A stretch of 28,113 bases of DNA from a virus. The position numbers and the translations under genes were made by a program. Each line of letters starts with the position of its first letter. Position 1 is the stretch's first letter. The notes below the pieces were generated by a model. The model was not told where the DNA came from, ran no database searches, and saw only the letters and a program-made list of their open reading frames with translations. This document shows, piece after piece, positions 3,001 through 16,549 of this stretch. The DNA lies in the IMG/VR virus record IMGVR_UViG_3300040751_001912, positions 1-28,113 of that record; one strand, given 5' to 3'.

Positions 3001-3232
3001 TAATTCTAAAGAAGCAAAAATGAATCCATTTATTGCTCTTAAAGGACGTATTCCATGTAAAGTAAGTGGTGAAGATGGTGCAGTTAAAAAGGGTATGTGG
3101 TTAATTCCTGATCCTGATGCAGTTGGTTTAGCTAAGGGAGTTCCATACGGTACTCCAGGTATAAATACATTTGACATTATAGGAATTGCTATTAGTAATA
3201 GTGAAAATGGAGAAGTGGAGGTTAAGGTCTAA
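2..3232 (+). CDS. Tail fibre protein, 5'-truncated by window edge
   Basis: Long fibre-like virion protein, probably part of the host-recognition apparatus. The reading frame is open from the first codon at position 2 and already reads YGDFASTSITNYM there, matching the internal YYGDFAATSVTNTI element near 1066. The gene therefore begins upstream, and the ATG at 38 is only an internal methionine. The protein is rich in Gly, Asn, Ser, Thr and Tyr and repeats a module of the form YDxxNTxYYxDPASTSxxN, with copies beginning near 350, 764, 1406, 1811 and 2276. The last 110 or so residues change character, from ADLAERYSADDIYEPGTVMG through VGVISTNPA. This resembles the C-terminal chaperone/peptidase-G2-like region of many phage fibre and spike proteins, which can help trimerise and sometimes cleaves itself. 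Fibre identity is well supported by composition and repeats; autoproteolysis is only a possibility. The stop shares a base with the next start (TAATG). Confidence 0.85.
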   Translation, partial: YGDFASTSITNYMRANRFEMGGPNEYITRATGNYGTIRVDGVSGSSGTWAGYAIRDDWVFMSNGASEAGIYNDTDNEWAILAARNSDVQIYYNGTWEERSRSGYMEARGSYRSPVWYDSNNTTYRIDGNGTSRLLTLQVDNVIQGSVDGYSYYLLRDDNRIIAPNEDPAGRMQFGFTSWGNNNTSPYADYLHLRSYTDSSGGSDNLVMFKKSGIGMRIWQQSWNSGTAYSTYRNVAVYNENPDGGGNNLYAARYYDEDNTSYYLDPASTSQVNTIQFNGGGVAQFATSSGNIRGYIQATETNDAHLIIATSGGEDISFRDGGLGGQWNMIIRGNGDVLTLGTAYAQRFTDRDNGNYYGDFAATSVTNTIDNRGEIYNDGWFRNDTNGRGLYNTATAMHWYSDSSVRWRMYSTGNTVEMMMTTSGNTTRGYVYANNSNDIGFLNNSGNWIFRTRQSYAELYGDLYANIMYDRNNSGYYVDPASTSNLNRVQATGSGSFILTGSVSNNDNRGLFFDGSKGGDNQPYAIYRENGGWSYPYPDLRIAFHTGIKFGANASYQGMRFYTDYNMSGQVMSINNGSDPLGGSNVYVNNNLQAGSSLRAPIFYDSNNTNYRMDMDATNSSRFRGVQSETMAYMGLSGQTRSSKEYYAARPRITGDSNYWTGSIGWGRIDMNTVGNWGSGFFDTWSNPPNQPSGTSHWVGVQAYHYTNGSSRYGWQLAGGPIENLRFRSSWAGYRTWRTIPVLNVNDNNNGAMYANIYYDTDNTGFYCDPSGFSNLNSGLRATEIYARNWFRNDNSYEGLYNQATGAHWYSWTTGYWAATSNSNSHAISIQMRGAFNGSMKGWVYGDGSWQGFLNSAGSWKIRCIHVDGYSPSIRFEETGDESWTGNPGNDVGKIEYHSNRFYIVAGGNSNRIVQFRRDGSDRSYVDNNGLYVGTATSARWADLAERYSADDIYEPGTVMGIDLDGDAEITIWREGLPMVGVISTNPAVQMNDMGIEPGSNSKEAKMNPFIALKGRIPCKVSGEDGAVKKGMWLIPDPDAVGLAKGVPYGTPGINTFDIIGIAISNSENGEVEVKV
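3160..3167 (+). promoter_or_regulatory. TATAAATA late-promoter-like box inside the fibre gene end
   Basis: An exact TATAAATA lies 65 bases before the start of the small gene at 3232, inside the last codons of the fibre gene. The spacing matches that of the intergenic late promoters in this window (about 30-75 bases to the ATG). In DNA this AT-rich several exact copies are expected by chance, so function is uncertain. Confidence 0.3.
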
Positions 3233-3792
3233 TGGTCTCAGCAGGAAGTATTATTGAAAACCAAGATGCGGTGAATACGTTCGATTCTATCGTACGTAAT
3301 TCCGCTTGGGCGCAGCAAGTATATCATTACTATAACAGACACGGAACGATTGACGGCGTAACTGCAGGAACAGAACATTATTCATTTGCAAACCCTAGTT
3401 CTGGTGCTTCTGTTGCTGGTATTGGTAATAACAATACTATTATTTACGCATCAACTGTTTATAATCACTTGAATGCAGCAACGTATAACCTAACGCATAT
3501 TCGCCAAGCACGGGCAAACTTTTATCGTAACCAAAACGGCAGTTGGGTTTATCGCGGATCTATTGGTCCACGAGTTACTGTTCGCCCAACAAGTGTTCGC
3601 CAAGGTGTTCCTAACGTTAATAATGCTGGTGTTTATGCCGGCAATATTATGTATGCGTCACAGTACAATCAATATTGTACTAACTTATATAATCAGTGGA
3701 ATAGTTTAAAAAATAACAGATCAGATTTTAACGTTTATTATTGCCACACGTCATGCCACTCATCATGTCACTCATCACGTGGTCGTAGATAA
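3232..3792 (+). CDS. Fibre-associated hypothetical protein with C-terminal Cys-His repeat
   Basis: A 186-residue protein whose ATG overlaps the fibre stop by one base, so it is translationally coupled to the fibre. A GGAGG lies 10 bases upstream. The N-terminal half looks helical (for example SAWAQQVYHYYNRH); the middle is Gly/Ala/Asn/Tyr-rich. The final 16 residues are CHTSCHSSCHSSRGRR, three tandem C-H-S/T-S units followed by a basic tail. The gene context suggests a virion, fibre-tip or fibre-assembly protein. The repeated Cys-His pairs could bind metal, as His/Cys residues do in T4 fibre tips, or could be a modification site for the enzymes encoded 2.5 kb downstream. Both are inference. 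I do not recognise a named family with certainty. Confidence 0.75.
   Translation: MVSAGSIIENQDAVNTFDSIVRNSAWAQQVYHYYNRHGTIDGVTAGTEHYSFANPSSGASVAGIGNNNTIIYASTVYNHLNAATYNLTHIRQARANFYRNQNGSWVYRGSIGPRVTVRPTSVRQGVPNVNNAGVYAGNIMYASQYNQYCTNLYNQWNSLKNNRSDFNVYYCHTSCHSSCHSSRGRR
3742..3777 (+). repeat. Three tandem 12-base repeats encoding CH(T/S)S
   Basis: The three units are tgccacacgtca, tgccactcatca and tgtcactcatca. They differ mainly at synonymous or near-synonymous positions. The protein pattern is conserved while third positions vary, which points to selection on the Cys-His-Ser-Ser peptide rather than a very recent slippage event. Confidence 0.8.
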
Positions 3793-3804
3793 AGGATTTA
3801 TATT

Positions 3805-5064
3805 ATGGATTTAAAATATTATGAAGAAAAATTTCATGAAGCTGGTTTAACAATTCAATCTGCTGCCGCAGAATATACAAGAAAAGGTGATTTATCACTT
3901 TTGATGTACAAAAAACTGTCTGATGTTGGAGTTACTGCAGACGAAGTAAAGCAACTCGCGAAACATTTAGAAGAAAATGATGTAGAGATTACTGAAGAAG
4001 AAAAGAAAAAGCGGCAAAACGAAAGAATGAATAAAGTTATTCGTTCGACAGATACCGACAGCGTTTATAACGAAGAATCAACCACTGGTAAAAGTGTTGC
4101 TGAAATCGCAGAGTTTCAAGGGCGCGCAAAAGAAGAAACCGAAGAAGCTCCAGCACCAAAAGAAAAGAAAATTATTCACACAACATGTCCTCTCCCGATG
4201 GAGGTTTTAAAACAGTATTTTGAAGATAAAGAAAATACTGCTTTTGTTGTTAATTATCGTGGTGGTAAATTAGACGCTGATGCTTTAATGATTTATTTAA
4301 GTAACTTGAATCTTGACGCAGATTTTGATGAAGAAACGTATAATGATCGCGATGCTTTAAAAGAGCTTGTTGCTGCTTATATGAAAACAACAACATCCTT
4401 AGTTGATATTGAGCAATTAGCTAGAGAAGCTTTGGCGATTTGTTGTTATCATAGAAATGTTATTAAACCAGATCATATTTTTGGTCTTAATACTATAGAT
4501 GAAGATGAGTTAGATGATCTAGAAGAATGTGATGATCCTTTTACTCATTTAAGATATTTCGAAAAACTAGGTAGAGCAGAAGATTTTATTCAAGAAAATT
4601 TAGATACAGTAGAACGTTGGTGTACAATGTTAGATTCTTCTGGTGTCTATAATTTGCATTGTTTAGGAAATCCAGAATTTGATCAGTTTATTGAACAAAC
4701 TTTTGAAACAATTGATGATCCAGATTATGTAGGTATTAACTATGTAAACTTATATTCTTTAAGTTGGATTGGATATTATATTGGTTGTATTGCTCCATTA
4801 GGAGAACCTGGATCTAATCCAAAATTCTTTACAAATCAGTTTAATGAATATAGATTCAAAGGCAAAAATATGAATCATTATTTTAACACTGAAGCAAATA
4901 TTCTTTCTATTCAAACACAAGTTATGGCTTCTGGTGAGCATGATGCACTGATGGAAGAATGGGGTGAAGGCGTTGAAGTTGAACTTCCAGATTTAACAAA
5001 TCTTGAAAGACCAGCATCACAAACAGAAGAACCACAAGTAGAAAATTCCGAGGAAGAAAAATAA
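3805..5064 (+). CDS. Hypothetical acidic protein (419 aa)
   Basis: Unrecognised protein, preceded by AAAGGA 9 bases before the ATG. The first 80 residues are helical and charged (KQLAKHLEENDVEITEEEKKKRQ). A Glu/Lys/Pro-rich linker follows at about residues 105-130. A larger, apparently globular domain of about 260 residues then contains CCYHRN near residue 213 and DELDDLEECDD near 234. The C-terminus is a disordered acidic tail (EEPQVENSEEEK). No signal peptide or clear membrane segment is visible. It sits between the fibre pair and another unknown of similar size that starts at the very next base, so the two are probably co-translated. A role in the virion, in fibre assembly, or as substrate or partner of the downstream radical SAM enzymes are all open. 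Confidence 0.8.
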   Translation: MDLKYYEEKFHEAGLTIQSAAAEYTRKGDLSLLMYKKLSDVGVTADEVKQLAKHLEENDVEITEEEKKKRQNERMNKVIRSTDTDSVYNEESTTGKSVAEIAEFQGRAKEETEEAPAPKEKKIIHTTCPLPMEVLKQYFEDKENTAFVVNYRGGKLDADALMIYLSNLNLDADFDEETYNDRDALKELVAAYMKTTTSLVDIEQLAREALAICCYHRNVIKPDHIFGLNTIDEDELDDLEECDDPFTHLRYFEKLGRAEDFIQENLDTVERWCTMLDSSGVYNLHCLGNPEFDQFIEQTFETIDDPDYVGINYVNLYSLSWIGYYIGCIAPLGEPGSNPKFFTNQFNEYRFKGKNMNHYFNTEANILSIQTQVMASGEHDALMEEWGEGVEVELPDLTNLERPASQTEEPQVENSEEEK

Positions 5065-6303
5065 ATGGCATTTAATTTATTTGGGAAAGTATATGTATCT
5101 CCTGACTGGGCTTATGATAATGGATACAATAGATGTATTTTTTCGGAATGGAGAAACCAAGCAGCATACACTAGTTATGATGTATTAGATAGTCCTGGCT
5201 TTGAAGCCGAGGTATTACTATCTACTGCTTCAATCACAGATGTTATTGGTGACGGTACTTCTGCAAATACTGAACCTGTTATGGATGGTGAGTCTAATAC
5301 TGCACTATCTTTTCCATCAGATGCATATAATGGTCAATACGAAAGTATTCCTCATTTCTTAAAACATCTTTATGACGAAGGATGGGATGGCAGATTATAT
5401 TCTGATGATGTTTCTTACAATATTTTATTTTTCGTATGGCTTAAACTTGCATTTCCAAATATAGATGATGATATAGCTTTTATTTTGTATAATATTATTA
5501 AACAAAGAGAAGCTTTAATTTTTCCTGATAATACAGATGCAATAGGTTTTATTGTACCACGAATTACAGATAAAAACAATTCTTCTATTTTAAGTAAAGC
5601 AGAATTTTTGCAAGAAAAAGCAGAGTTTGATGCAGCAGATACCGCGACTCCAGAATTCTATACTGAATTTAGAAATTTAGTTAAAGATGATTTTTCTATA
5701 GAAATTCAAATGGCGTCATATCTTTCTGGAAATTATCCTATACATACACTTACTGACAAATTCAGAAGAGTTGGCTCGAAAATGGTTTATAGCCATGTAT
5801 ATGCACTAAGAGATTGGTTGCGAGAAAATATTATGTCTGAAAAAGTTAAATCTATGACAGGTATTTCTCTAAACTGGGATGACACAAATTGGGAATCAAC
5901 ATTAAGATCTCAATCTGCACAGATGGATTTTTTATTTAAATCAGATGAAGATGCTATTAGAAAATCGTGGTCCTTTAGAGAACAGATGATTGAAGAAGCC
6001 TGGTATTGGATTGATTGGGTTGTAAATAATACTTCCGATGATGATATAAATAATTATGAATTATGGAATATTAGACAAGCTTGTCTAAATAATTCAAACT
6101 GGAAAAATATTAATAGCGATGATATTAACGCTCGTTATGCTGCTACTGCTGCTCTTATGGAAGAAGATATTAATAGTCATAATGTAAGTGGCTTAGCAAT
6201 TGAACAATTAAAAGAAAAAGTTAATAGCTTTTGGATAGAATACATATATCAGCTTAAGAGGGCTGGAGATACTACTACACTCGCAAAATTAAGTCACACA
6301 TAA
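5065..6303 (+). CDS. Hypothetical protein (412 aa)
   Basis: Unrecognised. It starts immediately after the stop of the previous gene, with GAGGAAG about 9 bases upstream inside that gene's last codons. It opens MAFNLFGKVYVSPDWAYDNG, followed by a polar region to about residue 95. The rest is aromatic-rich and probably helical (ISYNILFFVWLK-like segment near 125, then YILYNIIKQREA). Trp and Asp/Asn pairs are frequent in the second half (DDTNWES, WYWIDWVVNN). The hydrophobic segments look like buried helices rather than membrane spans. Its end lies only 9 bases before the first radical SAM gene, so it may be read through into that operon. A virion or fibre-assembly protein is the most natural guess from position, but nothing in the sequence proves it. 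Confidence 0.8.
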   Translation: MAFNLFGKVYVSPDWAYDNGYNRCIFSEWRNQAAYTSYDVLDSPGFEAEVLLSTASITDVIGDGTSANTEPVMDGESNTALSFPSDAYNGQYESIPHFLKHLYDEGWDGRLYSDDVSYNILFFVWLKLAFPNIDDDIAFILYNIIKQREALIFPDNTDAIGFIVPRITDKNNSSILSKAEFLQEKAEFDAADTATPEFYTEFRNLVKDDFSIEIQMASYLSGNYPIHTLTDKFRRVGSKMVYSHVYALRDWLRENIMSEKVKSMTGISLNWDDTNWESTLRSQSAQMDFLFKSDEDAIRKSWSFREQMIEEAWYWIDWVVNNTSDDDINNYELWNIRQACLNNSNWKNINSDDINARYAATAALMEEDINSHNVSGLAIEQLKEKVNSFWIEYIYQLKRAGDTTTLAKLSHT

Positions 6304-6312
6304 AGGTTTATA

Positions 6313-7437
6313 ATGATTAATATTATTGATGTCACTGAAACACGTGACAAGTGGGGCCAAACAGACACGGCCGCAAACTTAATATTTGAAAAGAGAAATA
6401 AATCGTGTGAGATTGTTATTATTCTTTTCGAATATTGTAATTTTGCATGTACCTTTTGTCCACAAAATCATAGCAGCAAAGATGGAATGGATTATGAATC
6501 TATTGTTTCTAAAGCTGAATTGATTAATGAATACATAAATCAAAATAATTTTGCTACAGATTTTGTTATTCGTTTAATTGGCGGAGAGCCATTTAACGAC
6601 GAAATTATTGTTGGTTCTAATCTATTAAAAGCGTATCGAGAATTAGCAGATAGAGTTAGAGCTGGCGCAAATTTAAATGGAAGACCGTGCGATTTTATAT
6701 GGATTTCCAATTTTAGCATGATCGAATGCAGAAATGATGTTCTAAAATTTATGGAAGAACAAAAAGACGATACTCAATTTGTCGTTTCATATGATCTTAA
6801 AGGCAGATTCAATAAAAAGAATCTAGAAACATTTAAAGAAAATATTGAAGTTTTTGCGCCGTATATCCGCAATATCAACTCAGTAATTACAAAACAAAAC
6901 ATCGAAGCATTACTTGCTGGAGATGAATATTACGACTACTTATATAGTAGATTTGATTATTCTTGGGATCAATATATTAAAGGTGATAATTTAAATAATT
7001 ATGCTATTCCTTTAGAGTCTCAAGTATTAGAATTTTATAAACTTTTAGCAGATAAATATCCAAAAGTAGAGTATATTGTGCCTTTCTTAAGAAAGCCAGA
7101 TACCGCTACTACAATGCATACTCTATGTTCTAGAGGTAATGGAGCTGCTATTGATTGGGATAATAAAATTATTCCAGAAGGTTGTGTCGGTTCTCATTAT
7201 CTTAGAAAATTTAAAGCACCGGCCTTTGTGGGTCACAATGGTCCAGACAATTTTATTGATAATACTTTAACAAGTTTTCTTGATAAATATAATTGTCATT
7301 CGTGTGAATATTATCAACGATGTCCTATGATGTGTTTCTCTGGTATTAAAGCAGGAAACATGATTCAAGATATGGATACATGTATCAATAAAGAATTATT
7401 TAAATATGTAGACTCGAAGAGGAAGAGTAATGGATAA
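6313..7437 (+). CDS. Radical SAM/SPASM protein A
   Basis: Radical S-adenosylmethionine enzyme of 374 residues. The core [4Fe-4S] cluster motif CX3CX2C is C42, C46, C49 (YCNFACTFCPQNH), followed by the SAM-binding GGEP near residue 92. The C-terminus carries a full SPASM-type cysteine set: C272 and C291, then C328, C331, C337, C341 (CX2CX5CX3C) and C357. These would hold two auxiliary Fe-S clusters. SPASM enzymes typically modify peptides or proteins (sulfatase maturation, RiPP cross-links, epimers) or occasionally small molecules. The gene has AAAGG 6 bases before its ATG, opens the coupled operon, and overlaps the next gene by 8 bases. The N-terminal 35 residues ahead of the motif are longer than in the sister proteins here. 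Family assignment is firm; the substrate is unknown. Confidence 0.93.
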   Translation: MINIIDVTETRDKWGQTDTAANLIFEKRNKSCEIVIILFEYCNFACTFCPQNHSSKDGMDYESIVSKAELINEYINQNNFATDFVIRLIGGEPFNDEIIVGSNLLKAYRELADRVRAGANLNGRPCDFIWISNFSMIECRNDVLKFMEEQKDDTQFVVSYDLKGRFNKKNLETFKENIEVFAPYIRNINSVITKQNIEALLAGDEYYDYLYSRFDYSWDQYIKGDNLNNYAIPLESQVLEFYKLLADKYPKVEYIVPFLRKPDTATTMHTLCSRGNGAAIDWDNKIIPEGCVGSHYLRKFKAPAFVGHNGPDNFIDNTLTSFLDKYNCHSCEYYQRCPMMCFSGIKAGNMIQDMDTCINKELFKYVDSKRKSNG

Positions 7438-9379
7438 AAAATTAAGATTAGCTTTCATGTCACCCCCTCACGCAGACTGGCAAACTCCTGCGAATTTAAC
7501 ATGGATGCAACTCGAAAGTCATTACAACCACGAGGGGAAACATCCTGATCGTGTTGAATTTATACCCGCAACTTATAAATTTGACGTTTACAAAAATTTC
7601 CAAGAAATTAAAGACGACATGGACCAAGGAATTGGCGCAGATGTATATTGCTTTGGTTCATATATTTGGAATTATCATATGTGCGATGAAGTTGCAAAGC
7701 TTGTTAAAGAACAAAATCCAAATGCAATTTGTGTAATTGGAGGTCCGCATATTGGTAAAAATGAACCAAAACTTATGGCGCAAAGATTAGAACTTTATGA
7801 ATATATTTGTCAAACAACTAAACCAGGCGAAATCTTTATGAATTCTTTACTTGATGGTTATTTTGATAATAATTGTCAATGGCCAGCGCACGACGATGTA
7901 ATTTGGGAATGGCGTTCAAACAAAAAGCAGGCTCTTGATATTAGTAAACAAGATTATTCTGTATATGAAGAACACATGGATTATCTTAAAGAAATGAGAG
8001 AGTGGGCTCGTACTCAGGTACTTGAGCCTTATATGGCTCTTGAGAGTACACGCGGGTGTCCGTTTAAATGCTCATTCTGTGAATGGGGTGGAGGCATTGG
8101 TACCAAAATTTATAGAAAGCAACTAGACATTTATAAAAGAGATGTTGAAGCCCTCAAAGCTGCTGGGTTCCGAGATGCATATCTTACTGATGCAAACTTT
8201 GGCGCATTCTTAGAACGTGATATTGAAATTTTTGATTGGACATTTAAGAATGGATTTAACTTAACAGATATTTCAACATTTAAGGCTCGTGATATTAATA
8301 GAAGAAAACAACTTATCGATGCTTGGTTTGATACATTAGGAACCGGCGAAGAAAAACACTCAGAAGTATTTGTGCCAGAGCAAGGTTCTCATGCATTGTT
8401 CTTTATGGGTTCTGCAGAAAATGCTGCTATGGGAACCACCATTCATGTATTTAACGAACAAAATTATAGTCGTGGTATGATGGACGATCATAATCCTTGG
8501 CAACGAGATGAAGAAGATGACGAAAGAGCTAGACAAGCTGCAGAAGGTGAAGCGCTTTATATTTCGGTTGTTCCGACCGTAAGTATTCAAAGTATTAGTA
8601 AAGAAGCTATGAAAGTAGTTAATCGTGTTGATTTAGATCTTGAAGATAAGCTTGAACTTGCACGACATATTAATAAGCGTTGTAACAAAGAAGGTTATCC
8701 AAAGCCACCTGTAGAATTAATTCTTGGAATGCCGGGATCTACTATTGATGATTTCTATAATGAATATGAAATTTATGATAACTTTAAATCATATGGTTCA
8801 TGGAGACATGACTATATGTTCCTACCAGATTCTGAACTAACAGATCCAGCATATATTGAAAAATATAAAATCGAAACAGTAGAATGCTGGACTGATGTTG
8901 TAGAAGAAGGTGGAGCAAATAATAGATATGGTATGTATCGTGGTTTAAGATCATACTTTAAAACTATTGCTTCGTGTTATTCATTTACAAGAGAAGAAAT
9001 GCATGAAATGTGGTTTATGAATGTTTGTGGTAATATTCTTTTACAACGGCATTATGACACATTTAGAGACGTTTTAACACCTGGTCAATATTGCAGATTG
9101 TGTTATCAAATTATTCGCGACTGTATTCCAGGGTTTGATATTGTACATGAAAATATTATTGATATTTTAAATCCAGATACTCCTCCGCGTGGTCTAAAAA
9201 GAATTATCGGTAATAAATCAAGACTAGAATGTATTATGGAACTTGTAACTGGTGATAACGAAACCATTCTTTTAAACGAATTATTTGTTAGAGCGTTTAC
9301 TCCAGAATGGGCCGACAAAACTAAAAATATCGTTGCTCCTACAGAATCAGCAAATGAGATTAAATATGCAATTGCCTAA
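7430..9379 (+). CDS. Radical SAM protein with cobalamin-binding-like N-terminal domain
   Basis: A 649-residue protein with class B/B12-type radical SAM architecture. The first 190 or so residues look like a Rossmann B12-binding domain: an N-terminal LAFMSPPHADW strand and loop, GADVYCFGSYIWN near 70 and CVIGGPHIG near 100-108. The classical base-off DxHxxG signature is not seen. The radical SAM core follows, with C210, C214, C217 (RGCPFKCSFCEWGGG), TDANFG, and ELILGMPGSTIDDF in the second half of the barrel. An acidic stretch (QRDEEDDERARQAAEGE) interrupts the core near residues 360-380 and looks like an insertion. The C-terminal 180 residues are unassigned. Family members methylate unactivated carbon or phosphorus, or rearrange rings, and some do not use B12 for methyl transfer. 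It overlaps both neighbours by 8 and 14 bases. Confidence 0.88.
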   Translation: MDKKLRLAFMSPPHADWQTPANLTWMQLESHYNHEGKHPDRVEFIPATYKFDVYKNFQEIKDDMDQGIGADVYCFGSYIWNYHMCDEVAKLVKEQNPNAICVIGGPHIGKNEPKLMAQRLELYEYICQTTKPGEIFMNSLLDGYFDNNCQWPAHDDVIWEWRSNKKQALDISKQDYSVYEEHMDYLKEMREWARTQVLEPYMALESTRGCPFKCSFCEWGGGIGTKIYRKQLDIYKRDVEALKAAGFRDAYLTDANFGAFLERDIEIFDWTFKNGFNLTDISTFKARDINRRKQLIDAWFDTLGTGEEKHSEVFVPEQGSHALFFMGSAENAAMGTTIHVFNEQNYSRGMMDDHNPWQRDEEDDERARQAAEGEALYISVVPTVSIQSISKEAMKVVNRVDLDLEDKLELARHINKRCNKEGYPKPPVELILGMPGSTIDDFYNEYEIYDNFKSYGSWRHDYMFLPDSELTDPAYIEKYKIETVECWTDVVEEGGANNRYGMYRGLRSYFKTIASCYSFTREEMHEMWFMNVCGNILLQRHYDTFRDVLTPGQYCRLCYQIIRDCIPGFDIVHENIIDILNPDTPPRGLKRIIGNKSRLECIMELVTGDNETILLNELFVRAFTPEWADKTKNIVAPTESANEIKYAIA

Positions 9380-9827
9380 TCTAAGATGGACCTATAATGA
9401 TTTTGAAGATTATGTATTAAGTTATGATGCTTATATGTATGATCGCACTTTATATATTGACAATCGTGGAAAAGATGTTAAAATAGTATCAGATGATTAT
9501 AATGAGTATTTAGCAAAAGTACAAGTAAAATTAGCAGAACAGCACGATACTATAAAAGTTGAAGGTATTGAAAAAATTGCTGGATGGGAAGACGGAACAA
9601 TTCACGCATTTAGATATTGGGAAAATTCTCCATCTTTTGAAGAACATACAGATCCAGTAGACGTGATACTGCAAGTACAAGAAGGTGCTAAATTAATCGA
9701 AGTAAATGGTATCGAAAAATATATAAGTGAAGAAGAAGTGTGGTGGATTCCAGCAAATACTCCACACAAAGCTTTAAATACAGTTGAAGGATTGATGTTT
9801 AGTTATGGCGTGTCCGATACAGGATAA
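9366..9827 (+). CDS. Cupin-domain protein
   Basis: A 153-residue protein; the frame extends upstream to 9285, but the ATG at 9366 gives the usual 14-base overlap and removes a Leu/Gln-rich stretch that is only the shadow of the preceding gene. The C-terminal 75 residues fit a single cupin barrel: FEEHTDPVDVILQVQEG (H94 and E106 as candidate ligands), a beta-hairpin LIEVNGIEKYISEEE, then WWIPANTPHKAL with H134. Only one His is obvious in the first motif, so metal binding is likely but not certain. Cupins can be dioxygenases, isomerases or sugar-binding domains. Its position inside a radical SAM operon suggests an accessory or modifying role on the same substrate. It overlaps the next gene by 23 bases. 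Confidence 0.75.
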   Translation: MQLPNLRWTYNDFEDYVLSYDAYMYDRTLYIDNRGKDVKIVSDDYNEYLAKVQVKLAEQHDTIKVEGIEKIAGWEDGTIHAFRYWENSPSFEEHTDPVDVILQVQEGAKLIEVNGIEKYISEEEVWWIPANTPHKALNTVEGLMFSYGVSDTG

Positions 9828-10851
9828 TATTACTGTTTATGTTAAAACAACCGAGACGTGCAATCTAAATTGTTTTCATTGTTTCACAAACGGTACTAAT
9901 GGAGCTAAAGTTTATTTTGACCCAGTGGCTACAGCTAACTGGGTCAATCAGCTCGATAAAGGTGATAACAGAGTTCACTTTGAATATCATGGTGGTGAGC
10001 CTATGCTTGCTCCTACTAAAGACCTATTTGATTTTTTCTTTAGAACATTTGATGTTTGGGAAAATAGAGCAACATATGGTATTACAACAAATCTCACTTA
10101 CAAATTAACAGAAGACAGATTAGACTTTTTTGATCATGTTATGGATGATGGTCGAATTGGTACTTCTTGGGATCCTACAATTCGCTTCGCAAATGAAAAA
10201 CAACGAAAGCTTTGGGAAGATAACGTTAAAGAATTAGTAAGTAAAGGTTTCCATTTAAAAGCTTTTATATCATTATCTAAAGACGTTGTCAATATGTCAC
10301 CAAGGTTTATTACAGATTATATGATGAATCTTGGTATTAAAGAACTTTCTTGGGAACGTATTACTGGAAATGGTAATGCTTTATTATATGGTGATAAGTT
10401 ATATCCAACAAATAAAGAGTTGCAAGACTTCTTTATGAGATGTCATACAGAATGTGCAGATTTAAGAGGAGAATTTGAAGATGTCTTCATGGAAACAGTC
10501 TATAACAAATTTGAAAAAGGACTCTTACACCAAGGAACGTTTTGCAGAGACTGTGAACAAAAATTATTTACGATTAATGCGACTGGTACTATTGCTGGCT
10601 GCCCTAACGCTGCTCCTACCGATTATTATGGCCATATTAATCAATCAGTAGATGAAGTAATAAATACACCTAAGAGGGGAGAAGTTATAGCAAAAGAACT
10701 CTTCTTAAGAGATCCTCGCTGTTATACTTGCCCAGTCTTTGGATATTGCGGATCTGATTGCCACCAACTTGAATGGCAAGACGATGTTTGTCCAGCCCCT
10801 AAAACTTTGATGATGGAATTATTGAATGGAATTAATCATAAAGCCCACTGA
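9805..10851 (+). CDS. Radical SAM/SPASM protein B (sulfatase-maturase-like cysteine pattern)
   Basis: A 348-residue radical SAM enzyme. The core motif is at C19, C23, C26 (TCNLNCFHCF), and HGGEP near residue 72 is the SAM-binding strand. The SPASM region is textbook: C250-X10-G261-X4-C266, then C306, C309, C315, C319 (CX2CX5CX3C) and C329, with an extra C247. This is the pattern of anaerobic sulfatase-maturating enzymes and many RiPP maturases, which use two auxiliary [4Fe-4S] clusters when acting on peptides. No precursor peptide gene is adjacent. The start at 9805 lies inside the cupin gene (23-base overlap), and there is no strong ribosome site, which is consistent with coupling. Catalytic residues are intact, so an active enzyme is expected; the substrate is unknown. 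Confidence 0.94.
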   Translation: MACPIQDNITVYVKTTETCNLNCFHCFTNGTNGAKVYFDPVATANWVNQLDKGDNRVHFEYHGGEPMLAPTKDLFDFFFRTFDVWENRATYGITTNLTYKLTEDRLDFFDHVMDDGRIGTSWDPTIRFANEKQRKLWEDNVKELVSKGFHLKAFISLSKDVVNMSPRFITDYMMNLGIKELSWERITGNGNALLYGDKLYPTNKELQDFFMRCHTECADLRGEFEDVFMETVYNKFEKGLLHQGTFCRDCEQKLFTINATGTIAGCPNAAPTDYYGHINQSVDEVINTPKRGEVIAKELFLRDPRCYTCPVFGYCGSDCHQLEWQDDVCPAPKTLMMELLNGINHKAH

Positions 10852-11878
10852 GGCATGTAACTTTAAATGTACTTTCTGTTCATCAACTAACATTGATCCA
10901 AAGAAAGCAAAGTTACTTGATCACGATTATATTTTTAAATTTCTAAAACGTTATCCTGAAACTAACACCATTATTGTAAATGGTGGAGATCCACTTATGG
11001 TGGAACCTGATTACTATTGGAAAATTATTGATCATCTTGATGAACATAATTATCGTGCTAATATTAGTTTTACTACTAATCTTTGGCCTTTTGTAATTAA
11101 ACCACAAAAATGGATTGATTTATTTCGTCATGAACGTATGGGAATTTGTACAAGTTTCCAATACGGTAAAGGTAGATTAAAAGGTGATTTTACTATTTTT
11201 ACTGAAAAGGATTTTTGGAGAGCATCTGATATGATGCTTGATCTCGTTGGTTATAGACCAGACTTTATTGCTGTAATGACAGATGAAGACGCACCAGATG
11301 CTATTCGTAATGTGGAACTTGCAAAAGAAATGAATGTCGAATGTAAGTTAAATTATGCTATGGCTTCTGGAGTACAAGGATCCACATATCGTTTAAGTAA
11401 GATCTATGAAACATATATAGAAATATACGATAGAGGTCTTTGGAAATGGGAATACAATACAAAACAAATGATGAAAAGGCTGCATGGTAATGCGACGTCT
11501 TGCCCGCAAAATAGAAGGTGTGATGAACATATCCGCGCTTTTAATCCTGGAGGTGATTATTATTCTTGCGGCTCTTTCGGTGATGATGGCGATTATCCTA
11601 TCGATTTTGAATATGAATTAAATGGTGGTAAAGCAACACCTTTGCAAGATGATTTTAATATTCAAACAATGAAAAACGCTTGTTGGACTTGCCCAATGTT
11701 TGAAATTTGTAATGGTTGCAAAAAGACTGTACGTGATATGAAACGTGAAGGTATTACTGAAGCTCATTGTAAACATATGAAAACTTTAGCACCTCGCATT
11801 CTTGAAATTAACGGGTTAGATCCTAATAGTGTAACCCCATATGTGAATGAGGAAGAAGATGTTCTCTGTATCAATTAA
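10826..11878 (+). CDS. Radical SAM/SPASM protein C
   Basis: A 350-residue radical SAM protein that begins almost directly with its barrel: MELIIKPTEACNFKCTFC, with C11, C15, C18. NGGDP near residue 54 is the SAM-binding strand. The auxiliary-cluster region has C232-X10-G-X4-C248, then C286, C289, C295, C298 and C315. The fourth cysteine spacing is CX2C where canonical SPASM has CX3C. C226 is an extra candidate. The core and all seven auxiliary positions are therefore present with slightly altered spacing. It overlaps the previous gene by 26 bases and the next by 20. Its general similarity to protein B suggests family expansion by duplication, but the two are too diverged for recent copying. 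Enzyme class is firm; the reaction is unknown. Confidence 0.93.
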   Translation: MELIIKPTEACNFKCTFCSSTNIDPKKAKLLDHDYIFKFLKRYPETNTIIVNGGDPLMVEPDYYWKIIDHLDEHNYRANISFTTNLWPFVIKPQKWIDLFRHERMGICTSFQYGKGRLKGDFTIFTEKDFWRASDMMLDLVGYRPDFIAVMTDEDAPDAIRNVELAKEMNVECKLNYAMASGVQGSTYRLSKIYETYIEIYDRGLWKWEYNTKQMMKRLHGNATSCPQNRRCDEHIRAFNPGGDYYSCGSFGDDGDYPIDFEYELNGGKATPLQDDFNIQTMKNACWTCPMFEICNGCKKTVRDMKREGITEAHCKHMKTLAPRILEINGLDPNSVTPYVNEEEDVLCIN

Positions 11879-12782
11879 TCCCACCTACTTTTGTAATTTT
11901 AATTGCGATTTTTGTTATTTAAGCAAAGAGCAATTACGTGATAGACAAACAGCTTCTATCGAAACGATTATGAAACGATTAAATGAAATAAATGAAACAA
12001 TTACACATATAGATCTATACGGTGGAGAGGTTGGATTATTACAAGACGATTATCTAAATGAATTAATTGATAGTATTAAAGCAGAATATAATCCAACAAT
12101 TTCTATTATTACAAATCTTTCTGCAATCCGTGAAGTATTTTTAAGACCAGATATTGATTTATCTGTGTCATATGATTTTGATGCACGAGAAAAAGAAATG
12201 ACTGTATTTACTAATATGTTAAAGCTGAACAGGCCGTTTTCAGTATTAACATTAGCATCAGAAAAAGTTATTAATAATGATGTAGATTATATGATTAATA
12301 TGTTTAATTCTTTGACTAATTTAATTGCTGTAGAGATTAAACCATTTAGTTCTACTACACACCGTACACAATATGTTACTGATTTGCAATATGAAGAGTT
12401 TATTAAAGAGTGGATTGATAGTCCAATTCCAAAAAATTGGTTGTTTATTAATCAAGATAAAATTGAGGAGTGCCTAGATGGAAATTATAATGCTTTTAGC
12501 GATAATCATGTTTATATTACTCCTAGCGGTAATTTTGCTGTACTGGATTTTGATTTATTGGGAAATGAAAGTTTTACAGAGCTCGATACTTTCGATGCAT
12601 ATCTATCTTGGGCAAATAGAGAAAAGCAGTCAGGAGTCAGTGACATCTGCAAACAATGTAAATACTTCGGCGGATGCTTAACGGAGCATTATAAGTATGT
12701 CGCGTTTGATCCAAAAATAAATGGTTGTAACGGTTATTTTAATCTACTAGAATGGTACAATGAAGAGCCAGTACGAGTATAG
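11859..12782 (+). CDS. Radical SAM protein D with reduced SPASM region
   Basis: A 307-residue radical SAM protein. I chose the ATG at 11859 because GAGG (11849-11852) sits 6 bases before it; an in-frame ATG at 11847 would add only MRKK and has no ribosome site. The core motif is C12, C16, C19 (FCNFNCDFCYL), and YGGEVG near residue 53 replaces GGEP. The C-terminal region is depleted: the CX10GX4C element is replaced by HVYITPSGNFAVLD, which has no cysteine. Of the CX2CX5CX3C...C element, C264, C267, C273 and C290 remain, but the fourth position is H277. At most one auxiliary cluster is therefore likely. Such twitch-like forms may bind substrate differently from full SPASM enzymes or act as partner subunits. 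It overlaps both neighbours by 20 and 23 bases. Confidence 0.9.
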   Translation: MFSVSINPTYFCNFNCDFCYLSKEQLRDRQTASIETIMKRLNEINETITHIDLYGGEVGLLQDDYLNELIDSIKAEYNPTISIITNLSAIREVFLRPDIDLSVSYDFDAREKEMTVFTNMLKLNRPFSVLTLASEKVINNDVDYMINMFNSLTNLIAVEIKPFSSTTHRTQYVTDLQYEEFIKEWIDSPIPKNWLFINQDKIEECLDGNYNAFSDNHVYITPSGNFAVLDFDLLGNESFTELDTFDAYLSWANREKQSGVSDICKQCKYFGGCLTEHYKYVAFDPKINGCNGYFNLLEWYNEEPVRV

Positions 12783-13506
12783 AGTTCAATATGAACAGCA
12801 ATATAGTAGAAATCTTGAGCCAGAATTAAGAACTGCTGAAGATGGTCACAGATATGCTATGTTTGTAAAAGGAAATACTTTTAATGTTGGTGGAAGAACA
12901 TATATATTCAAAGATCATTTAGGACAATATGTTAGTACTTTTGTAAGTCAATATTCTGATATTATAGATAATAATTTAGAGCCGGGCGTTAAAGATGCTG
13001 TACTTGCCTTACACGAAAAAGGTTATTTAACTTATACATCTTGCCAAGGACATGATGATTCTAAACACAGATATATTGGTGTAGTATTCAATACTAATGA
13101 GCAAAAAAGAAAATTTATCAGAGAAGTAAACAAACTCAAGTGTGATATATATTGGTATGACCACGCAATAAATACGGTTGAAAGACCACAAACAAGCATA
13201 CCTTGGTGGTCAGACGCTATAAAATTGCATATTGTTTATAATGATAATTCTTTTGCTAATTCGGCAGTTGTTGACAGAAGAGATAAACCATACACAGATG
13301 AAGAATTAACTAAATTTTGGAATATTCAAATGTGTAGAAACTACAATTATTACGAATCAATAATTTTGTGTTTTGGTTATCCTATGGTTGAAAAAAACTT
13401 GTGGGAAAAAATTAAAAAGATATTTTTCTATAATCATTATAAAGTAACTAGTGCATATTTTAATTTTTTAAATAAAGTCAATCAATTACCGGAGTATGAG
13501 AATTAA
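12760..13506 (+). CDS. Hypothetical protein with SCxGH motif (possibly TYW3-like)
   Basis: A 248-residue protein, coupled to the preceding radical SAM gene by a 23-base overlap. Around residues 78-110 it has a helix (VKDAVLALHEKG) followed by YLTYTSCQGHDDSKHRYIGVVF, giving S94-C95-Q96-G97-H98. A TxSCxG(H/R) turn after such a helix is reminiscent of the TYW3 (wybutosine-synthesis) fold and of uncharacterised phage proteins sharing this element. Full-length TYW3 similarity is not evident, so this is a hint and not a call. The C-terminal half is aromatic-rich (IQMCRNYNYYESIILCFGY) and basic near its end. Wybutosine synthesis includes a radical SAM step (TYW1), but the radical SAM proteins here lack the flavodoxin domain of eukaryotic TYW1 and look SPASM-type. 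Confidence 0.75.
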   Translation: MKSQYEYRVQYEQQYSRNLEPELRTAEDGHRYAMFVKGNTFNVGGRTYIFKDHLGQYVSTFVSQYSDIIDNNLEPGVKDAVLALHEKGYLTYTSCQGHDDSKHRYIGVVFNTNEQKRKFIREVNKLKCDIYWYDHAINTVERPQTSIPWWSDAIKLHIVYNDNSFANSAVVDRRDKPYTDEELTKFWNIQMCRNYNYYESIILCFGYPMVEKNLWEKIKKIFFYNHYKVTSAYFNFLNKVNQLPEYEN

Positions 13507-13507
13507 A

Positions 13508-13918
13508 ATGAAAGAATGGAAAGTTAGACAGCAGTATTTCGATATGATGAATCCAGATGCAGACTGGAAAGATGATTTAAACAAAGTAGATATCGTAGAA
13601 GTTGATGCTATGGATATTATTCCCGAAGCAATTCGACATTTTGAAGAGCATGTACCAGAATGGGTTTATCCATCTAAGTCTTATGTGGTAGCAATTTGTT
13701 ATGCACATTGGATATCTCAAGATTTCGACGAAGATTTTTACGAAACATTAGCAGATCCAGAATTACTTCCCCACGATCCATATTTTGTTCCATATGAAGA
13801 TGATAAACAAACATACGATGAAATTATTGAGGCAGTAACTCCAATTGATATGATTGGTATGGTACCAGATATTTACGAATATTATAGAGAAGAAATTCTG
13901 GAGTCTTTGATTGAATGA
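13508..13918 (+). CDS. Hypothetical acidic protein (136 aa)
   Basis: Small acidic protein beginning MKEWKVRQQYFDMMNPDADW. I favour the ATG at 13508, one base after the upstream stop, with GAG 7 bases before it. An in-frame ATG at 13496 would add MRIK, but its GGAG is only one base away and too close to act. The protein is rich in Asp, Glu, Tyr and Pro (DADWKDDLNKVDIVEVDAMD; FVPYEDDKQTYDEI) with no cysteine cluster and no recognised motif. It has one Cys, at about residue 64. It ends in a 4-base ATGA overlap with the first oxygenase gene, so it belongs to the same operon. Possible roles are a small partner protein or substrate carrier for the neighbouring enzymes. No family is recognised. Confidence 0.75.
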   Translation: MKEWKVRQQYFDMMNPDADWKDDLNKVDIVEVDAMDIIPEAIRHFEEHVPEWVYPSKSYVVAICYAHWISQDFDEDFYETLADPELLPHDPYFVPYEDDKQTYDEIIEAVTPIDMIGMVPDIYEYYREEILESLIE

Positions 13919-14427
13919 ATTATGAAAAATTACAAATAGACGGTTATGACCATTTTAACGACCCACGCGTTTTTACTTATTTAGAATGGTTTTATAAAAC
14001 TCCTTTTATGATTACTTATCAAGGAGTAAAATATCCGATTACTTATTGGCCTATAGGTGTATGGCTTTTAAGAATGACGCAGAAAAAAATAGACGAATTA
14101 ATATTATCAGATGAGCTTTGCACATTTGGTAATGTGGATGCTTGGAGAGGTATAGATAATAAAACTGATGTGTGGCATACAGATCACATTGAAGGATCTA
14201 ATCTTGCATTTCTCATGTATCTTACAGATATGGATGAATCTACTGGTGGTGGTATCCAAATTAAAAGAGCAAATTCATCCAATTATGCTACAATATATCC
14301 TAAGAAATATGATATTGTTGTTTTGAATCAAAACGGCGATCAATTTAGACATAAAGTTATAAACTTAAAACAACCAATAAATAGAGATGTAGCAAATATA
14401 GAATTTAATATTATGGAAAGGCTATAA
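13915..14427 (+). CDS. 2OG-Fe(II) oxygenase (prolyl-4-hydroxylase-like)
   Basis: A 170-residue double-stranded beta-helix dioxygenase. The facial triad is complete: H88 and D90 in VWHTDHIEG and H146 in FRHKVINL, with R157 eleven residues later as the 2-oxoglutarate carboxylate anchor. LAFLMYLTDMDESTGGGIQI is the typical strand pair after the first motif. Proteins of this superfamily hydroxylate proline, lysine or other residues, or small molecules, using O2, 2-oxoglutarate and ferrous iron. The protein is short for the family and has no signal peptide, so it acts in the host cytoplasm. It is joined to the previous gene by ATGA and separated from the next by one base. It is the only one of the three local oxygenases with a classical HxD. 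Confidence 0.9.
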   Translation: MNYEKLQIDGYDHFNDPRVFTYLEWFYKTPFMITYQGVKYPITYWPIGVWLLRMTQKKIDELILSDELCTFGNVDAWRGIDNKTDVWHTDHIEGSNLAFLMYLTDMDESTGGGIQIKRANSSNYATIYPKKYDIVVLNQNGDQFRHKVINLKQPINRDVANIEFNIMERL

Positions 14428-14428
14428 C

Positions 14429-15142
14429 ATGGATAATACAAATATTATAAAAATCCATCCTACACATATTCTAGTTAAAGAAATTCCATTTACAGACGAA
14501 GAAATGGATGAGCTGCGAGTTTGTGCAAAAGCAACGTGGACAGGCTATTACGAGCAAGGATTAGATAGTCATGACTATCAATGTAATTCCGATCCTTTTC
14601 CTCTTTTTACAAAAGAAAATTTAAATATTTTTCCAATTTTAGGTAAATTAAAAAATGAATTTGAAAAAGGCTTTTATGAATTGGCCATTTCTCACGAGGG
14701 AAATACATTAACAAGAGAACAAATTTCACACATGGTTGCTCAACAGCATGGGCAAATGCCAATTATGCAACAAGGTGATCTAATTGCGTTACATACACAT
14801 CCTGGATCATTAGCTTATGGTATTTTTTATTTAGATGACGTTGATAATGAAAAAGATGGTGGTATACTTCAATTGTGGGATCCTTCATTCCATGTGAATG
14901 CTGGCATGAGAAATCCACAAATTTATGAAGTGGATACTGTAGCTAGGAGATTAGTAATTGTGCCAACATACATTTGGCATAATGTTACACAATATTATGG
15001 AAAATCTGAAAGAATTTCTGTTATTTGTAATTTGTCAATTCATCCAGATTTTGAAAGAGTTTTAACATATAGTGGTGTACAGGAAAACGGTGCATTTACT
15101 GACAAAACAAAAGGTTCTGGATTTGATCCAGCGGCGGTGTAA
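14429..15142 (+). CDS. Putative 2OG-Fe(II) oxygenase (PF13759-like), second copy
   Basis: A 237-residue beta-helix protein. The first motif is LHTHPGSLAYGIFYL with H122 and H124, followed by DGGILQLWDPS. The distal ligand is H184 in IVPTYIWHNVTQ, and R195 sits eleven residues further on, matching the 2-oxoglutarate anchor position. The HxH form with a following GxxxYL strand is usual in the PF13759 type of putative 2OG oxygenase found in many marine phages and bacteria. Whether the second His or a later acidic residue such as D151 completes the metal site cannot be settled here. AAAGG precedes the start by about 8 bases. A 35-residue C-terminal tail after the barrel is Gly/Thr/Lys-rich and probably flexible. 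Confidence 0.86.
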   Translation: MDNTNIIKIHPTHILVKEIPFTDEEMDELRVCAKATWTGYYEQGLDSHDYQCNSDPFPLFTKENLNIFPILGKLKNEFEKGFYELAISHEGNTLTREQISHMVAQQHGQMPIMQQGDLIALHTHPGSLAYGIFYLDDVDNEKDGGILQLWDPSFHVNAGMRNPQIYEVDTVARRLVIVPTYIWHNVTQYYGKSERISVICNLSIHPDFERVLTYSGVQENGAFTDKTKGSGFDPAAV

Positions 15143-15143
15143 T

Positions 15144-15704
15144 ATGGAATATAAAGATTTATGGCCTACGACAGTAGGGTTTGGAAAATTTGATTCTGTG
15201 GAATTATCTCAGTATATTCTTATGAATTACGATATGAGCAATCCTCCTAGTGATATGCAAGGTAAAAACATTTTTAACGATCATACATCATATATGCAAA
15301 AATTTCAAAATGATGTTTATGGTGCTTTTAATAATTATTTAACACATACTATTGGTAAAAAGATTAGTGATTGGAAATATCATGAAATGAAAGCTTGGAT
15401 TACTGGGCATGATTATGAATATAATATGACTATTCATAATCACTCTGGTGCTCATTTATCTGGTGTATTTTATGTTTTAGCCGAAGATCAAAAATCTGGT
15501 GGCGATATTGTATTTTCTGATCCAAGAAGCAACGCTAATAGAGGTTATGACGAATATTTTGATCCTATGTTTGATAGACTTATTCACAGACCGCAAACTG
15601 GTGATTATATGATTTTTCCAAGTTTCACGTATCATCATGTAAATCCATATTATTCAAATCTTAGAATTTGTGTTCCGGTTGATCTTTATTTGTACAGAGG
15701 TTAA
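15144..15704 (+). CDS. Putative 2OG-Fe(II) oxygenase (PF13759-like), third copy
   Basis: A 186-residue protein starting one base after the previous stop at ATG 15144 (MEYKDLWPTTVGFGKFD). The longer in-frame start at 15072 would run through the preceding gene and is rejected. PF13759 features are clear: an N-terminal LWPT segment, TIHNHSGAHLSGVFYVL with H98 and H100, GGDIVFSDPR, then DYMIFPSFTYHHVNPY with H164/H165 and R174. The order and spacing match the second copy, although the identity is visibly low. It is the last gene of the operon that begins at 6313, and a late promoter follows within five bases of its stop. Substrate unknown; phage homologues are often assumed to hydroxylate virion proteins, but that is not shown here. 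Confidence 0.88.
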   Translation: MEYKDLWPTTVGFGKFDSVELSQYILMNYDMSNPPSDMQGKNIFNDHTSYMQKFQNDVYGAFNNYLTHTIGKKISDWKYHEMKAWITGHDYEYNMTIHNHSGAHLSGVFYVLAEDQKSGGDIVFSDPRSNANRGYDEYFDPMFDRLIHRPQTGDYMIFPSFTYHHVNPYYSNLRICVPVDLYLYRG

Positions 15705-15783: not shown

Positions 15784-16203
15784 ATGGCTCTAACACTTAC
15801 ATATTCTGTTACTAATCTTAAAGTAAAAGATCAAGTAAACAGCGAAGGTACAACTCTTTCCAATGCAGTTTGTCAAACATACTGGAAAGTTGTTGGTGAA
15901 GACGAAAACGGCAATCAAGCAGATTGGGCCGGTGCAACTCCTTTTACAGCTGAAAATGTCCCAGCTGCATCATTTATTTCTTTTGATGATCTAGTAGAAG
16001 AAGATGTTCTTGGTTGGATTAAAGCCGTAGTAGACGGTGATCCTACTTATAAAGCTCATATCATTGATCAGCTACAAAGAAAAATCGATCAAGATGCTGC
16101 TCGTGATGCAACAATGCCTTGGGCGCCTGATGTAACACCGCCGGCACCTGAAGCTGGTGAGGCTGATCCAAATGTAGCCGATCCAGTAGACCCAGAAGCA
16201 TAA
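15784..16203 (+). CDS. Small phage protein, paralogue 1, with Pro/Glu-rich tail
   Basis: A 139-residue protein with GGAG before the ATG and a late promoter upstream, so expressed late. Residues 1-105 form a domain shared with the next gene: Y-(S/K)-(V/I)-x-N-L, then NSEG, (V/Q)xWK, AxxxPASxFI(S/N)F, VLxW(I/V). The last 30 residues are a Pro/Ala/Glu/Asp-rich tail (TPPAPEAGEADPNVADP) that is probably disordered. Short proteins with this shared domain are common in marine T4-like phages without a known function. A virion or virion-associated role fits the late promoter; no enzyme motif is seen. Confidence 0.8.
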   Translation: MALTLTYSVTNLKVKDQVNSEGTTLSNAVCQTYWKVVGEDENGNQADWAGATPFTAENVPAASFISFDDLVEEDVLGWIKAVVDGDPTYKAHIIDQLQRKIDQDAARDATMPWAPDVTPPAPEAGEADPNVADPVDPEA

Positions 16204-16219
16204 GTAGAGGAATTCTATC

Positions 16220-16549
16220 GTGAATTATACCTGGAAAATAATGAACTTAGGTACAATGGATGAATTGAATTCTGAAGGCGAAGTTCTTCCGAATTCGATT
16301 GTTTCTGTTCGCTGGAAGAAAATTGCTACAGATACAGATGGATCTACTGCAACATATCTAGGTAAAACAACACTAACTGCTGCAAATACACCAGCATCAG
16401 AATTTATTAATTTTAATAGTGTATCTCAAGATACTGTGCTCGAATGGGTTCAAAACTCTTTAGGTCCTGCCGAGATAAATACAATTAATAAAATATTAGA
16501 GAAGAAGATACAAGAAGGCAAAGTTAGAAAACAAACACCTAATTGGTAA
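16220..16549 (+). CDS. Small phage protein, paralogue 2 (GTG start)
   Basis: A 109-residue protein starting with GTG at 16220, with AGAGG 9 bases upstream. It is a diverged duplicate of the preceding gene: both have the NSEG...LxN(A/S)(V/I) segment near residues 20-30, (Y/R)WK(V/K)(V/I), the AxxxPAS-(S/E)-FI(S/N)F block and a final amphipathic helix ending in basic residues. It lacks the Pro/Glu tail and instead ends EKKIQEGKVRKQTPNW. The two are co-transcribed with a 16-base gap. Function unknown. Confidence 0.78.
   Translation: MNYTWKIMNLGTMDELNSEGEVLPNSIVSVRWKKIATDTDGSTATYLGKTTLTAANTPASEFINFNSVSQDTVLEWVQNSLGPAEINTINKILEKKIQEGKVRKQTPNW

Follow-up and report, generated by a model that had tools for sequence, protein, structure and literature searches.

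A radical SAM gene array in a virus genome and its candidate substrate, a virion-linked protein with a conserved C-terminal tail

Several described systems in which radical S-adenosylmethionine (SAM) enzymes act on proteins or peptides provide a comparison for the phage genes presented here. During polytheonamide (proteusin) maturation, one peptide is worked on by several radical SAM enzymes, including cobalamin (B12)-type methyltransferases and an epimerase, together with an iron hydroxylase. The anaerobic sulfatase-maturating enzyme (anSME) acts on a protein substrate. In the His-Xaa-Ser (Hxs) system, HxsA displays repeated H-x-S units and is encoded next to paired radical SAM genes. The accessible text of one report presents HxsA as a substrate accompanied by HxsB, HxsC and HxsD (PMC9062424). 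Arrays of radical SAM genes in phages are also in print: excerpts of the published accounts give 11 and 12 radical SAM proteins, with a five-gene module, for Campylobacter phages CP220 and CPt10 (PMC2853527), 12 for a T4-like marine genome (PMC5332604), and list cupin, Fe-S oxidoreductase, radical SAM and 2-oxoglutarate (2OG) genes in phage FLC6 (PMC8066314); the closest passages found on phage radical SAM genes otherwise concern single genes. The stretch analysed here, termed the window, is the complete 28,113-base virus record IMGVR_UViG_3300040751_001912, in which five radical SAM open reading frames (ORFs), namely r1, a B12-type gene, r4, r5 and r6, are located at positions 6313-12782, downstream of the gene for a 186-residue protein termed TAG (3232-3792, plus strand). 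Comparison of these sequences with their relatives makes it likely that the radical SAM genes encode a pathway, resembling that of ribosomally synthesised and post-translationally modified peptides (RiPPs), which would serially mature the C-terminal tail of the virion-linked TAG protein.

The tail, which comprises the last 16 residues of TAG, is nearly invariant and is placed exactly at the C-terminus. In the window it reads CHTSCHSSCHSSRGRR (3742-3789, plus strand) and consists of three Cys-His-x-Ser repeats followed by Arg-x-Arg-Arg, (CHxS)3-RxRR, which constitute the candidate modification site. TAG belongs to the family phrog_35144, matched by 60 of 68 aligned members, and TAG proteins that otherwise differ, including those from loci fetched by r4 alone and from three named jumbo phages, share the same kind of tail. 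Over the 68 sequences, all of which were found through or beside the tail, the mean majority-residue fraction is 0.87 for the tail and 0.415 for the body. A DNA pattern for CHxxCHxxCHxxRxRR that does not require a stop codon was run over IMG/VR viral contigs (the tail-first search) and returned at least 140 matches in at least 119 viral stretches, one of which gave no match on re-scan. A stop codon follows directly in 136 of the 140 matches listed, across 114 stretches, while four matches are not C-terminal; the tail-ending frames are mostly 120-370 residues long. Dereplication reduced 143 tail loci to 122, and the distinct tails number 134. The body-first search instead used an alignment of eight TAG proteins minus the last 16 residues and retrieved 58 loci, some on contigs shared with the tail-first set; the strict tail is found at the end of each of the 55 complete ORFs, after exclusion of one cut ORF and two loci without a scorable ORF. 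Among the 48 distinct proteins of this set, 10 of the 13 invariant columns fall within the last 16 residues, including the serine at position -13. TAG thus presents a conserved core set apart from a variable remainder, as in RiPP-like radical SAM maturation. Variants of the arrangement were also observed: one locus (L119, record G030) displays four CHxx repeats instead of three, CHSNCHSNCHSNCHTNRSRR, in a record with six matches to the radical SAM model PF04055, and L063, L071, L163 and similar loci encode two tandem tagged proteins of ~130 residues behind the fibre gene, together with more divergent radical SAM genes.

Whole records were searched with PF04055 for 80 of the 119 tail-first stretches. 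True C-terminal tails are present in 76 of these 80, and PF04055 matches were found in all 76 (1-8 each; 3-6 in 64 records), compared with one of the four records with a non-C-terminal pattern match (a single occurrence) and one in a set of 50 viral records taken at random, where the only match falls short of the cut-off. The random set comprised 50 of 80 listed loci (120 found) with longer records preferred (12-118 kb), while the tail records span 5.6-490 kb, so the size ranges differ; the smallest tail records also match PF04055. A radical SAM frame is present in the fetched stretch for 96 of 135 tail ORFs, at a median gap of 5 nt and on the same strand in 94, and radical SAM genes accompany all 56 scored loci of the body-first set. 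The candidate substrate gene therefore both adjoins and co-occurs with the putative modifying enzymes, the arrangement expected of RiPP-like radical SAM maturation. When r4 homologues served as the starting point, the tail was identified in 27 of 38 records of at least 20 kb, within 7 kb and on the same strand in eight of the 27, while the reversed pattern occurred in none of the 38. The other 11 records contain no tail even when two mismatches are allowed, and in them just 1.75-10.9 kb of sequence follows the r4 homologue; since the tails of 19 relatives are found 10.3-12.0 kb downstream, truncation can explain these 11 records, with L032 (10.9 kb) a borderline case. Terminase relatives of at least 20 kb carry the tail in 6 of 21 records, all six with radical SAM genes, a count that omits three further records already known to hold both. 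The contigs of three tail-less terminase relatives (G170, G174 and G177) start within the array. As the contigs are fragmentary and interrelated, none of these counts represents independent events.

The operon surrounding the tail is conserved. The 122 distinct tail loci include a radical SAM gene of the main cluster at 104, the family A partner protein (3805-5064 in the window, plus strand) at 103, the cupin-like protein at 66, and the family B partner protein, which has an 'HLFxKVYL'-type start (5065-6303, plus strand), at 57. The labelled neighbour upstream of the tail ORF is a main-cluster radical SAM gene in 77 of 129 cases and the one downstream is family A in 85 of 134. Fifty longer regions were selected for holding tail and radical SAM genes, and therefore only co-occurrence among the radical SAM types is informative in this set: r1, r4 and r5 are each present in 46, r6 in 45 and the B12-type gene in 19, next to family A in 50 and family B in 34. 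An earlier note on this DNA, which had been confined to the five radical SAM genes, called for a survey of related phages for conservation of the whole set; r1, r4, r5 and r6 occur together in 40 of the 50 regions, and the B12-type gene is the less constant member. The ten regions without one or more of the four types are defined by the scoring, which was confined to the strand of the tail and gave each gene the type of its best match among the five window proteins, at a minimum of 80 bits; in some of the ten, the missing type may be encoded on the opposite strand, lie past the cut or be too diverged. A common order starts with fibre genes and continues with cupin, r4, TAG, A, B, r1, (B12-type), r5 and r6, with oxygenases between and after; in 42 of 50 regions r4 is the gene immediately preceding TAG. 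The window differs, since here and in its close relative L536 the same parts are present with the cupin and r4 shifted behind the B12-type gene. Two genes annotated as dihydrofolate reductase were observed inside the radical SAM cluster of Burkholderia phage SURPRISE13 (L006:14397-15574).

The five radical SAM proteins, all encoded on the plus strand, are r1 (374 residues, 6313-7437), the B12-type protein (649 residues, 7430-9379), r4 (348 residues, 9805-10851), r5 (350 residues, 10826-11878), which is the most conserved among the four aligned types, and r6 (311 residues, 11847-12782), which has a reduced auxiliary-cluster region. An intact CX3CX2C motif is present in each, and a PF04055 search of the whole record revealed exactly these five places (E 2.8e-9 to 3.2e-4), with r5 and r6 passing the Pfam cut-off. 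In r1, r4 and r5 the motif is combined with the seven-cysteine C-terminal set of SPASM proteins, which is fully kept across relatives, while r6 relatives retain four C-terminal cysteines (268, 271, 277 and 294); of the five proteins, only r4 exceeds the cut-off of the general SPASM model TIGR04085 (31.1 bits against 27). The earlier note had described four radical SAM proteins with full or reduced SPASM regions and one of cobalamin type, all with intact motifs, inside a T4-like structural region, and this description holds, the setting being supported by downstream PHROG matches to head closure, tail sheath stabiliser, terminase and sheath proteins. Given the single PF04055 match among the random viral records, the set is more than a chance finding; the note's view that such a tandem set is unusual has to be tempered by the phage arrays already published.

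Profile searches against the Protein Data Bank (PDB) matched r4 to 8vpo (a radical SAM protein), anSME, 5wgg (which we take to be CteB) and ChlB, r5 weakly to anSME and MoaA, and r6 to YydG, while r1 gave no match at 1e-5. The B12-type protein has TokK, a methyltransferase (7e-21), and CysS as its closest solved relatives by sequence; its match to PF02310 is weak (22.4 bits against a cut-off of 32.1), and that to the KedN5 methyltransferase model NF033712, at 3.6e-27, reaches 94.9 bits against a cut-off of 700, so that membership of the KedN5-type C-methyltransferases was rejected despite its homology to TokK. No link between the B12-type gene and a particular tail residue was retained, as tails with and without this gene overlap by eye. 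The cupin-like protein (about 9354-9827, plus strand), located between the B12-type gene and r4, scores 19.5 bits against Cupin_2 (cut-off 27.2); its residues H121, D123 and H161, invariant in 66 of 66 relatives, form an HxD...H triad that looks like an iron-binding triad, and one relative exceeds the JmjC_2 cut-off. The partner proteins are less readily placed: a Foldseek search of the family A model against the PDB gave no clear fold match, and Pfam returned scattered weak matches only for family B. None of the NCBIfam maturase models was passed by a window protein, and TAG itself matched no NCBIfam model.

These data allow the locus to be compared with the systems introduced above. Similar to Hxs, the window encodes a protein with repeats near radical SAM genes, and HxsB or HxsC is among the NCBIfam models listed for r1, r4, r5 and r6. 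Each window repeat contains an H-x-S, embedded in a CHxS unit, so that the likeness of the two substrates is ambiguous. The repeats terminate in a fixed RxRR end, four to five radical SAM enzymes are involved and the context is a phage fibre; Hxs membership was rejected, as r4 reaches 34.8 of 370 bits against HxsB and r5 27.7 of 267.9 bits against HxsC. The solved anSME structure covers most of r4 (6.6e-9) and r5 (1.8e-6), but the scores of r5 (44.8 bits) and r4 (24.4 bits) against TIGR03942 lie far from its cut-off of 349.45 and exclude membership. YydG is the only solved relative found for r6 (7.3e-9), which has a reduced C-terminal cysteine set; the match, however, spans about the first 130 positions of r6, and membership was rejected at 24.6 bits against the TIGR04078 cut-off of 300. 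Polytheonamide-type systems differ in that the likely substrate in the window is the tail of a virion protein, and the likeness to the Poy enzymes is drawn from their description only. The accessible text on CP220 and CPt10 reveals a comparable wealth of radical SAM genes, including a five-gene module, while no Campylobacter phage is found among the seven named records with r4 or r5 homologues, in a collection whose inclusion of CP220 and CPt10 is unconfirmed. The set is accordingly filed as putative radical SAM protein maturation, RiPP-like in logic and outside Hxs, anSME and the other tested families.

Homologues of r4 (E up to 1e-5) and r5 (E up to 1e-10) occur in the same seven of 50,697 named phage records, representing six phages: Burkholderia phages SURPRISE13, FLC6 and FLC8, Agrobacterium phage Atu_ph07 (two records), Sinorhizobium phage Phosso and Pseudomonas phage pPa_SNUABM_DT01. 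The tail is present in each of the six, as judged for FLC6 and FLC8 from an 88% match over the full length, and the Phosso tail reads CHTSCHASCHSSRSRR. A tblastn search against the named phages with the window TAG, a 20-residue tail or the B12-type protein found no match in each case, and a related-locus search with the window TAG protein alone was unproductive. In Atu_ph07 the TAG protein is gp170. According to the accessible text of its description, 131 virion proteins of this phage were identified by mass spectrometry, the majority in three clusters, one of which comprises coding sequences (CDS) 170-215 (PMC6102473); since the boundary of this cluster falls at CDS 170, gp170 was probably detected in the virion. 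In the window, TAG lies directly behind a tail-fibre-like gene (2-3232, plus strand, open at the 5' end of the record), whose stop codon overlaps the TAG ATG by one base; the fibre-like protein, for which a Pfam search gave no match, is a member of the neighbour family 'fib4', found at 61 of the 122 distinct tail loci. A predicted model of TAG has a mean predicted local distance difference test (pLDDT) score of 81, with the tail at low confidence, and yielded five matches at E ≤0.001 in a viral structure library, one being an Atu_ph07 protein of the length of gp170. In this library, three larger proteins (504-660 residues) of Myoviridae sp. ctijX18 match the TAG model.

The tail is not restricted to phage contigs. 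Over 84,980 prokaryote genomes the same pattern gave 91 matches in 88 stretches, of which 71 are not C-terminal and look like chance and 20 are C-terminal. One of the latter, a 29-residue frame (L420), was not counted as a tail, and the remaining 19 tails are distributed over 16 loci, several of which look like phage contigs. Genes for pyruvate kinase, cbb3 oxidase and FeoB are found near the tail in three bacterial loci (L538, L539 and L541). Source taxa among the titles listed include Bacteriovorax, Bdellovibrionaceae, Bacteriovoracaceae and Halobacteriovoraceae, families that include predators. A 382-kb Halobacteriovoraceae contig (L537) comprises r4, TAG, A, r6, a second r4, r5, r1 and a B12-type gene, and thus all five radical SAM types of the window. 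In a scan of selected neighbour genes, an S74 fibre chaperone protein was identified 2-6 kb from TAG in three non-viral loci (L418, L495 and L537), with a prepilin methylation motif above the cut-off in L418, below it in L495 and none listed for L537; L418 and L537 represent Bdellovibrio-like bacteria, and pilus-borne fibres are one possible reading of this combination. The S74 proteins beside bacterial TAG genes suggest that the tail goes with fibre-like surface devices in phage and bacterial settings alike. Phage-fibre-like adhesins, many with S74 domains, are described for the predatory Bdellovibrio as MAT fibres in the accessible text of one report, in which 'radical' is absent from the main text (PMC10769870), while in the loci described here one S74 protein has the prepilin motif above the cut-off. 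Whether phages and bacteria of predatory families share an enzyme-built contact tip, in which four to five radical SAM enzymes and iron hydroxylases would one after another crosslink, epimerise, methylate and hydroxylate the (CHxS)3-RxRR tail of a virion or surface protein, is in our estimation an evenly balanced question.

Within the favoured reading, serial maturation of the tail, TAG would be made together with the tail fibre and its tail would be recognised and worked on in turn after translation. The enzymes r4, r5 and r1 may install radical modifications, for example crosslinks or oxidations, on Cys, His or Ser, while r6, whose nearest solved relative is the epimerase YydG, may invert the configuration of residues. 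Where present, the B12-type enzyme would act as a methyltransferase, hydroxylation would fall to the cupin and the 2OG oxygenases, and A and B could act as dedicated partners or carriers. Once matured, the tail would be carried by the fibre or baseplate, where it would provide a rigid, non-standard tip that touches surfaces. If radical-matured, TAG would to our knowledge be the first such virion protein and would define a protein-maturation class of its own. The earlier note had suggested a multistep pathway, with a virion protein, a peptide or a sugar as examples of what it might modify; the protein option is favoured, because the constant partner is a virion-linked protein with a strikingly conserved tail, although the chemistry is predicted from sequence, and nothing was found to tie the set to sugars. 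That likely substrate and its partners A and B lie upstream of the five radical SAM genes on which the note had focused, and the cupin was not in its list.

Several observations weigh against serial maturation of the tail. No modification of the tail was found in the searched literature, and the tail is known here from sequence alone, with its C, H and R positions in the tail-first set fixed by the search pattern. The presumed detection of gp170 in the virion follows from a cluster boundary in the accessible text. In 19 of the 27 tail-bearing r4 records the tail lies 10.3-12.0 kb downstream and on the opposite strand, 7 of the 15 tail-less terminase relatives carry radical SAM genes, and one of 218 kb (G183) has two isolated radical SAM genes and no tail. 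Searches of the TAG model against the PDB (Foldseek, VIA) gave no match, so that the proposed tip role follows from gene order alone. Finally, the Asp that follows a SPASM cysteine in the aligned anSME, presumably catalytic, is replaced by Pro in 45 of 48 r4 proteins and by Gly in 40 of 41 r5 proteins. Formylglycine formation at the last repeat is an attractive idea, because its C-H-x-S-R presumably resembles the sulfatase motif, but it is not favoured, since this Asp is missing from r4 and r5.

Other explanations assign the tail or the enzymes a different part. The tail could serve recognition only, as a docking or follower peptide at the C-terminus, with the radical SAM enzymes binding it but modifying the TAG body, the fibre, A or B. 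Among RiPP enzymes it is common that the segment bound differs from the segment modified, docking could take place at the fixed RxRR end, and family A is as constant as the radical SAM genes themselves. Such a role is nevertheless unlikely, as conservation of the TAG body is low and leaves few constant residues as possible targets, most invariant columns being those of the tail, and regular Cys/His repeats look, in our judgement, more like targets than a docking site. The same regular Cys-His spacing would suit metal binding by an unmodified tail, similar to the iron-binding HxH tips of T4 gp37 and P2-like spikes, in which case the radical SAM set would make another product, for example a cofactor or a surface glycan. 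A passive metal tip, however, would need no radical SAM enzyme, whereas the tail records searched hold such genes without exception, commonly adjacent to the tail.

A glycan product would find some support in a sugar-type gene, a cytidylyltransferase-cupin fusion, located further downstream in the window (18831-19613). This gene was observed at only 6 of the 122 tail loci, many of the fetched stretches being too short to show it, and the sugar pathway was set aside; the metal-tip explanation as a whole we hold to be improbable. It has also been suggested, in the accessible text on the Campylobacter phages, that phage radical SAM genes play a metabolic role (PMC2853527), and models of the MoaA, BioB and QueE types appear in the NCBIfam lists for the window proteins, none of them anywhere near its cut-off. 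If the five genes were auxiliary metabolic genes of the usual kind, with small molecules of the host as substrates, their place beside TAG would have to be accidental, which is very hard to credit given that r4, TAG, A, B, r1, r5 and r6 stay neighbours in most phage regions examined and, in part and reordered, in bacterial contigs.

Downstream of r6, the window encodes protein P7 (12760-13506, plus strand), whose family is found in 14 of 50 operon regions, and a small conserved phage protein, phrog_20737 (13496-13918), which separates the radical SAM set from three 2OG-Fe(II) oxygenase-like genes on the plus strand. These comprise the oxygenase-like OGb (13915-14427; PF13640 24.9 bits, cut-off 27) and two OGa proteins (14429-15142 and 15144-15704), both above the PF13759 cut-off, the start of the second being placed at an ATG within ORF 15072-15704. 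Further downstream, tandem proteins at 15784-16203 and 16220-16549 belong to one family, phrog_7802, the first also matching DUF7936, while two large ORFs (16581-17615 and 17620-18861) gave no family match.

Literature searches, from which subscription sources mostly fell outside, returned no description of the tail or of a radical SAM-modified virion protein, and neither of two RGRR tail strings occurred in the best literature matches listed. As the arrays themselves are already published, the new element here is a specific candidate substrate for them, proposed from sequence comparison. Orphan phage radical SAM arrays thereby gain a defined substrate candidate that can be tested on particles amenable to purification and mass determination, and radical SAM enzymology gains a case in which four conserved enzymes may have their targets in or near a single stretch of 16 residues. 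Since the tail also occurs near S74-chaperone genes in Bdellovibrio-like bacteria, phages and these bacteria may have an attack device in common. Should the tail prove to be modified, virions bear side-chain chemistry beyond the genetic code, probably at the point of host contact, which would bear on host recognition and on phage proteomics, in which standard peptide searches would miss the modified tail.

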